From: Natrinema marinum
GTDB taxonomy: Archaea; Halobacteriota; Halobacteria; Halobacteriales; Natrialbaceae
Length of the DNA stretch: 64,000 nt
NCBI RefSeq assembly: GCF_024296685.1
Contig: NZ_CP100763.1
Location: 3,534,001 to 3,598,000 of the forward strand
Direction of reading: 5' to 3'
This document shows, one piece after another, positions 20,557 to 21,390 of the stretch (its first letter is position 1; the number at the start of each line of letters is the position of its first letter). Made by a program: the position numbers and the translations under genes. The notes beneath the pieces were generated by a model. The model saw nothing but the letters and a program-made list of their open reading frames with translations. It did no database searches and was not told where the DNA came from.

Positions 20557-20744
20557 CGGCCGGCTGCGTTCCGGTCGCTCTCGCTGGTATTGGTGCCGTC
20601 GCTCTCGCGGAGGAAATGGGTGAGAGGAGTAAGCCCCCTTCTGTTCGGCCCGGCATTCGGCTGAGCGTCCGCGCCGTCCGCGGCGGTGCCGCGGGGCGTT
20701 CGGGCTACCACGGCGCGGACTTGCACCGGTGAGGGTTCGCCGTT

Positions 20745-21010
20745 CCATCGATCCTCGGCCGTCTGCGCGCGGTCGATCGTGACGGGACGTTCGACGGCTC
20801 GCACCGTCTCACAGTTCGCGGTTCTCGCACCGGTGGCGCTCCGAACCGCGCTCACGATCCGCGGTTTCGAACCACGTTTTGACGACCGCACGCGATTCGC
20901 GGCGTCCGCCGCTCATCTGTCGGCAACTCTCGCGCCAGCGGCGCTTCGAGTCGCCCGTTCGGCGGTTCGCACCGCCTCACGAATCGTGGCCGCCAAGCGG
21001 CCACGCAGTC
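20745..21010 (-). repeat. Duplicated branched modules in the RNase P P12 region
   Basis: Two related modules lie in the RNA between the conserved core parts. Module 1 is enclosed by GAUUCG/CGAAUC. It contains GGCGGU-GCGA-ACCGCC and the stem GGCGACUC/GAGUUGCC holding GCGCC-GCU-GGCGC. Module 2 is enclosed by GAUCGUGA/UCACGAUC. It contains CGCGGUUC/GAACCGCG holding GCGCC-ACC-GGUGC, plus GACGGU-GCGA-GCCGUC. Matching hairpins keep the GCGA loop while both stem strands change together, which supports real RNA helices derived by duplication. Confidence 0.7.
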
Positions 21011-21164
21011 CCTCTGCGGGTCAACTCCCCTTCCTCTCGGTCGGGTTCGCGCGCATCATCGGTCGGGCCGAGACGTGTCGTTTCTGTTCCAGAGCCAGCG
21101 GTCTCCCGCTCCGGACTTGCGTCCGGTCACCCGCCCGAACGGGTGGGGGGACTTTCCTCGCGAG

Positions 21165-21300
21165 CGTGGCGCATCTCGGAGAGATGGGCCACGTTATGAG
21201 CGTGATGCATCCCGAAGGGATGGATCACGTTACGAGCGTTGGGCAACCCGGAGGGTTGGCCAACGGTAGAGCGTTGCGCATCCCGAAGGGACGGGCAACG
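21165..21300 (-). repeat. Four tandem 29-nt hairpins in RNase P RNA
   Basis: Hairpins at 21272-21300, 21237-21265, 21201-21229 and 21165-21193, period 35-36 bp, separated by 6-7-nt linkers. Each has a 13-position stem with a C-C mismatch at position 7 and a UUC or UCC loop. Stems differ but stay paired (lower arms GUUGC/GCAAC, GUUGG/CCAAC, GUGAU/AUCAC, GUGGC/GCCAC). The only other irregular pair is G-U on the RNA strand but would be A-C on the other strand, which fixes the functional strand as minus. They occupy the P2-P3 position of the RNA. Confidence 0.85.
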
Positions 21301-21382
21301 CGAGGGAGGTGGTCGCGCCGTTGCCGACGCGACCATCGCGGCAGCCGGGCTCTCTCTCCCATCACTCCTAGGCGCGTCGGGC

Positions 21383-21390
21383 GAATAAGT
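21383..21390 (-). promoter_or_regulatory. TATA-like box of rnpB
   Basis: ACTTATTC on the minus strand, centred about 25 bp upstream of the 5' end predicted from P1 pairing, which is the usual archaeal TATA spacing. Confidence 0.5.

Follow-up and report, generated by a model that had tools for sequence, protein, structure and literature searches.

The window analyzed here, a stretch of 64,000 nt from Natrinema marinum, contains on its minus strand what its sequence indicates to be an archaeal RNase P RNA gene, with putative cleavage of the 5' ends of pre-tRNA as its function (Table 1). The covariance model RF00373 matches positions 20622-21177 over its whole length (model positions 1-288 of 288) with 74.4 bits (E 1.6e-20). 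The curated gathering cut-off of 84 is higher than this score, and the inserts in the RNA are the most likely reason for the shortfall. The marks of an archaeal RNase P RNA are present, namely the invariant 5' strand of P4, the 3' strand of P4, and the pairing of P1 and P2. The genome is a single contig of 3.77 Mb, and the RF00373 search found one RNase P RNA locus in it. RNase P proteins of the Rpp30 and Rpp21 families are encoded as well. The span from P1 to P1 is about 743 nt, the longest among 68 relatives compared. A candidate TATA box, which is also present upstream of P1 in most relatives, may be the promoter of the gene.

Table 1. Features of the RNase P RNA locus, in window coordinates
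Feature	Position	Strand	Basis or remark
Candidate TATA box ACTTATTC	21383..21390	minus	about 20-30 nt upstream of P1
RNase P RNA gene	20616..21365	minus	RF00373 match; P1 and P2 strands by sequence
P1 5' strand GUGAUGGGAGAGAG	21352..21365	minus	complementary to 20616-20629
P2 5' strand GCCCGGC	21344..21350	minus	pairs with GCCGGGC, 20648-20654
P3 basal stem 5' strand CGCG	21337..21340	minus	local fold of P3 domain
P3a hairpin, 11 bp, GCAA loop	21310..21335	minus	fold and covariation; precedes array
Array unit 1	21272..21300	minus	closest unit elsewhere 1 nt away
Array unit 2	21237..21265	minus	identical units known in other species
Array unit 3	21201..21229	minus	identical units known in other species
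Array unit 4	21165..21193	minus	identical units in Natronococcus and a Natrialbaceae MAG
P4 5' strand, invariant GAGGAAAGUCC	21149..21159	minus	RF00373 match and sequence
P12 expansion, about 310 nt, multi-hairpin	20740..21060	minus	length comparison and repeat search
P4 3' strand ACAGAAGGGGGCUUA	20630..20644	minus	RF00373 match and sequence

A PIN_5-family protein is encoded in the genome too (L164, G000:C1:1271611-1272246); the protein-only HARP RNase P belongs to this family. Haloferax volcanii likewise encodes a PIN_5-family protein, and lowered levels of RNase P RNA still impair tRNA processing in that organism (PMC4946936).

Structure of the P3 arm

Folding of the P3 domain places a tandem array of four hairpins at the tip of P3, behind P3a and between P2 and P4. 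Each unit of 29 nt is made up of 6 bp, a C.C mismatch at position 7, and another 6 bp, closed by a UUC or UCC triloop. The unit starts are 36, 36, and 35 nt apart, with linkers of 6-7 nt, and TRF reports a period of 36 bp with 3.9 copies and 75% matches. The coordinates, TRF, and RF00373 agree with the preliminary description, made from the sequence, of four tandem 29-nt hairpins at a spacing of 35-36 inside the RNase P RNA. The architecture it gave for the unit (a 13-position stem with C-C at position 7, a UUC/UCC loop, and a 6-7-nt linker) is found in all four. It had also proposed that the array replaces an ordinary P2-P3 arm. This is not the case, as P2, the basal stem of P3, and P3a are all present, P3a having been overlooked.

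The minus strand of the array folds at -74.9 kcal/mol (z -8.6), and none of 200 shuffled sequences equals this value. In isolation the P3 domain folds into a basal stem that encloses P3a and then the four units. When the whole RNA is folded, the minimum-energy structure has other pairings at the P3 junction, so the basal stem is assigned from the local fold and from comparison with relatives. The basal CGCG pairs with a second CGCG (21159-21162), whose last base is the first of GAGG and which overlaps the beginning of GAGGAAAGUCC. Relatives with a simple P3 have CGUG/CAUG as the basal stem, and in the family alignment of single-unit P3 domains the stem is invariant except for one G-U. A kink-turn for L7Ae was considered and rejected, since the sole irregularity in the unit stems is a 1x1 C.C mismatch and not a 3-nt bulge with tandem G.A.

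Copy number among relatives

The branched P3 is found across the family, and the number of hairpins varies. An order-wide search of 293 genomes with a model of the branched P3 matched 57 of the 63 family members listed, the family being Natrialbaceae by its named members. The model also matched five genomes from a single genus of another family (f7/g15) and gave three weak matches elsewhere. The outgroup loci that were read have a short and simple P3, with the exception of f7/g15. The 71 distinct P3 domains have no unit after P3a in one case, one unit in 27, two in 25, three in 12, and four in six; in this tally the count for L092 is a manual correction, and L093 was entered as one, its two units being mispaired in the fold. 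The array is thus not peculiar to the window genome, as had first been supposed, but is a family-wide feature with one to four units. Nor is it an artefact of assembly, since the four units are 6-9 nt (of 29) apart from each other and arrays of two to four units also occur in independent genomes of the family.

Copy number differs between RNAs with nearly identical cores. The core in the window (four units) is 98.7% identical to that of L041 (one unit), and the core of L095 (two units) is 99.6% identical to that of L038 or L049 (four units each). Mapped on a tree of AMMECR1, a neighbouring protein, copy number must have changed at least 26 times, a rough figure because the tree is weakly resolved. 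A supported Natrialba group on this tree contains sister species with one, three, and four units. Position in the array matters also. Among 43 multi-unit arrays the unit nearest the 3' end has the consensus form in 39, and the first unit has it in 20. Such frequent change in copy number, together with degenerate first units, favors mere tolerance of the array.

Covariation in P3a and the units

Compensatory changes maintain the stems of the units, as the preliminary description had claimed. Among 66 distinct units there are 155 two-sided changes, compared to 53 in shuffled sets, and these occur at eight of the twelve pairs. The proportion of paired cells is 97.3%, which is inflated because the units were gathered in part by their pairing (at least 10-11 pairs in alignment A1 and the unit lists). 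When the 3'-most units were taken in a fixed register with no pairing filter, nine or more Watson-Crick pairs were present in 50 of 62. Three helices are supported by an alignment of eleven single-unit P3 domains, in which 15 of 27 pairs have changed on both sides, and across the family P3a covaries at eight of its 11 pairs.

The strand on which pairing is selected can be read clearly for P3a but not for the units. A G-U pair, which would be A-C on the opposite strand, had been taken as proof that the array is selected as minus-strand RNA; such a pair occurs in one of the four window units only. In near-paired units across the family, G-U and A-C are found 40 and 33 times (p 0.48), and with the loop-adjacent positions removed the counts are 26 and 17; the bias in the family-wide units was not significant under several exclusions. 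In P3a the counts are 62 and 9 (p 7e-11), and the contrast between P3a and the fixed-register units is significant (Fisher p 0.003), all of these tallies being counts of sequences and not of independent events. The strand argument therefore fails for the units, while P3a is clearly constrained as minus-strand RNA.

The lack of a G-U excess in the units, next to a P3a that has one, is what would be expected if the paired changes came from correction of DNA quasipalindromes by template switching and not from selection on RNA. The array would then be freight that mutation bias keeps paired. Switching from arm to arm could also produce paired changes in the units. As a full explanation this is unlikely, because such correction would erase the central C.C, yet the mismatch persists in most units, and because only some of the unit pairs change.

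P3a also bears on whether the segment is an intervening sequence that is removed or fragmented after transcription, leaving a mature RNA that is ordinary or split. Large variable inserts in an almost invariant core are the expected appearance of a removed segment. However, the array is framed by the basal P3 stem and by a P3a under constraint as RNA (62:9), no bulge-helix-bulge or other site of processing came to notice in an unsystematic reading, and removal is considered quite improbable.

The units show signs of constraint beyond pairing. Change is uneven among the twelve pairs (chi-square 188), with pairs 1, 2, 8, 11, and 13 nearly fixed and pairs 4, 5, 6, 9, 10, and 12 variable, and the C.C at position 7 is retained in 55 of 97 units. 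The nearly fixed pairs and the persistent mismatch favor a specific contact and suggest something beyond neutral tolerance. One possible explanation, though not the favored one, is that the units are repeated binding sites for an RNase P protein or another partner, with copy number setting occupancy or tuning oligomerization or salt tolerance. Recognition would be read from the C.C mismatch and the fixed pairs G2-C28, C8-G22, and C11-G19, and the heterogeneity of the pairs and the retention of the mismatch do point to recognition of sequence. The location is suitable as well. In the dimeric holoenzyme of M. jannaschii, Pop5 is seated where P2 meets P3 and Rpp30 contacts P2-P3 in each of the two RNAs, so that P2-P3 is at the Pop5/Rpp30 contact and the dimer interface (PMC6565675). 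According to a 2026 study, a helix at the P3 tip, ES3.1, adds protein sites in archaeal and eukaryotic RNase P (PMC12974513). Against binding sites, copy number often shifts between close species, first units are often degenerate, and some species have a pair in place of the C.C.

Origin of the units

The units in the window resemble units of other species more than they resemble each other. For each of them, some other species or genus has a unit differing by 0-1 nt, often at a different place in the array; the siblings within the window array differ by 6-9 nt of 29. Unit 2 has exact matches in the last units of Natrinema salsiterrestre (third of three) and Natrialba hulunbeirensis (fourth of four). 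Unit 3 is identical to the last of four units in Natrinema versiforme and to the third of four in the Natrinema genome G018, and unit 4 to the last of three in both Natronococcus pandeyae and a Natrialbaceae MAG. These distances suggest old cassettes that have been exchanged, and a recent tandem duplication in the window genome was rejected on the same grounds. The simplest reading is that old unit types have been lost, gained, and swapped by recombination among RNase P RNA genes, an exchange that is deduced from identities as short as 29 nt. Diversifying selection against like neighbours was also considered and rejected, since the excess of differences within arrays over shuffled arrays is slight and not significant (p 0.13; close pairs p 0.05).

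The units appear to be confined to the RNase P RNA gene. A pattern search of the whole genome found no copy elsewhere with up to three mismatches, and a covariance-model search of the genome recovered the four units alone, the next match having 24 bits (E 0.25). Searches of viral contigs (with the exact pattern), plasmids (with the array), and phages (with the gene) gave no match. With no copies elsewhere in the genome, the array is not a dispersed element. Palindromic units with sequence types common to several genera might suggest insertions of a small mobile element in the RNase P RNA gene. This is very improbable, and is largely refuted by the genome, viral, plasmid, and phage searches; in addition, the units always occur at one site and in one orientation.

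Six off-locus matches to the model were read, five in relatives and one in the window genome, and they look unrelated except for one in G018. This is a 56-bp fragment (L130, G018:C1:1584206-1585034, at about 392-447) that is 89% identical to a unit plus the 5' strand of P4, and it is perhaps the remnant of an integration. Halosimplex salinum has a 5' fragment with P1, P2, and P3 (GGGAGAGAGAGCCCGGCCGCCGCGAC; L111, at about 2695-2721) followed by sequence that lacks the remainder of the RNase P RNA.

Interpretation and relation to known RNAs

Overall the array appears, with a probability of roughly 0.6, to be an expansion segment that is specific to this lineage and located at the P3 tip, peripheral and nearly neutral in copy number, with one constrained unit. 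In the Natrialbaceae the P3 tip would have become a branched junction carrying P3a and one 29-nt hairpin, which is now present in one to four copies. Homologous recombination between related haloarchaeal RNase P RNA genes, using the conserved linkers (CUCRUAA) and the flanks, would add, remove, and swap units. In the mature RNA the array would be retained as short rods that point off the core. Given the peripheral location of the P3 tip, copy number would be near neutral as long as each unit folds on itself. The 3'-most unit, which lies beside P4 and is under the strictest constraint, may make a contact near Pop5-Rpp30. A more tentative reading sees an array of exchangeable cassettes, in which foldable units bearing a recognition signature are shuffled and the number of arms for protein binding or dimer tuning differs between sister species. 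If this were true, a structural RNA gene would be evolving part of itself as an exchangeable array.

The expansion segment favored here would belong to a known type of RNA with a new elaboration. The window RNA is like the archaeal RNase P RNAs of RF00373, which have P3 and P12 extensions, in its single-copy gene, its P1/P2/P4 core, and its extended P12. It differs in its branched P3 tip with a tandem array and in its sub-gathering score. The text of the 2026 study describes the ES3.1 helix at the P3 tip and, for Halobacteria, P12 arms that are enlarged, with growth of P12.1/P12.2 (PMC12974513). The two insertion sites are the same, and in both cases there is an additional helix at the end of P3; here too the basal P3 stem is retained. 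ES3.1 as described there is one extra helix with an internal loop, while the family studied here has one to four related hairpins. The array can be accommodated as a more elaborate form of P3 expansion segment.

No description of a tandem P3 hairpin array of variable copy number was found in the accessible literature, outside of which lie subscription papers and the RNase P database papers of the 1990s. The literature search also found no RNase P paper on Natrinema and nothing on point about P3 in haloarchaea. A loose analogue exists in bacteria. As Vioque reportedly described in 1997, heterocystous cyanobacteria have STRR repeats in their RNase P RNA gene. STRRs, which are heptanucleotides, occur at dispersed sites in the genomes of these organisms as well. 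In both cases the gene for RNase P RNA contains tandem repeats, but the Natrinema unit is a 36-bp hairpin module and is absent elsewhere in the genome.

Natural variants of the P3 arm may be useful for studying expansion segments. RNase P RNA is an essential, conserved ribozyme, and its helices are usually seen as having expanded over deep time. In this family the copy number of one arm varies between species with cores about 99% identical, which provides many natural replicates. The natural versions with one, two, three, and four units bear on the question of whether expansion segments have a function or are freight that is tolerated, and transfer of P3 arms into a tractable haloarchaeon such as Haloferax volcanii would make this question directly testable.

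The P12 arm is a second hypervariable expansion with multiple hairpins, and its modules differ between the close relatives L038 and L049. In the window it is the longest among 41 measured, the other 40 ranging from 101 to 254 nt, and it contains a diverged 34-nt repeat (79%).
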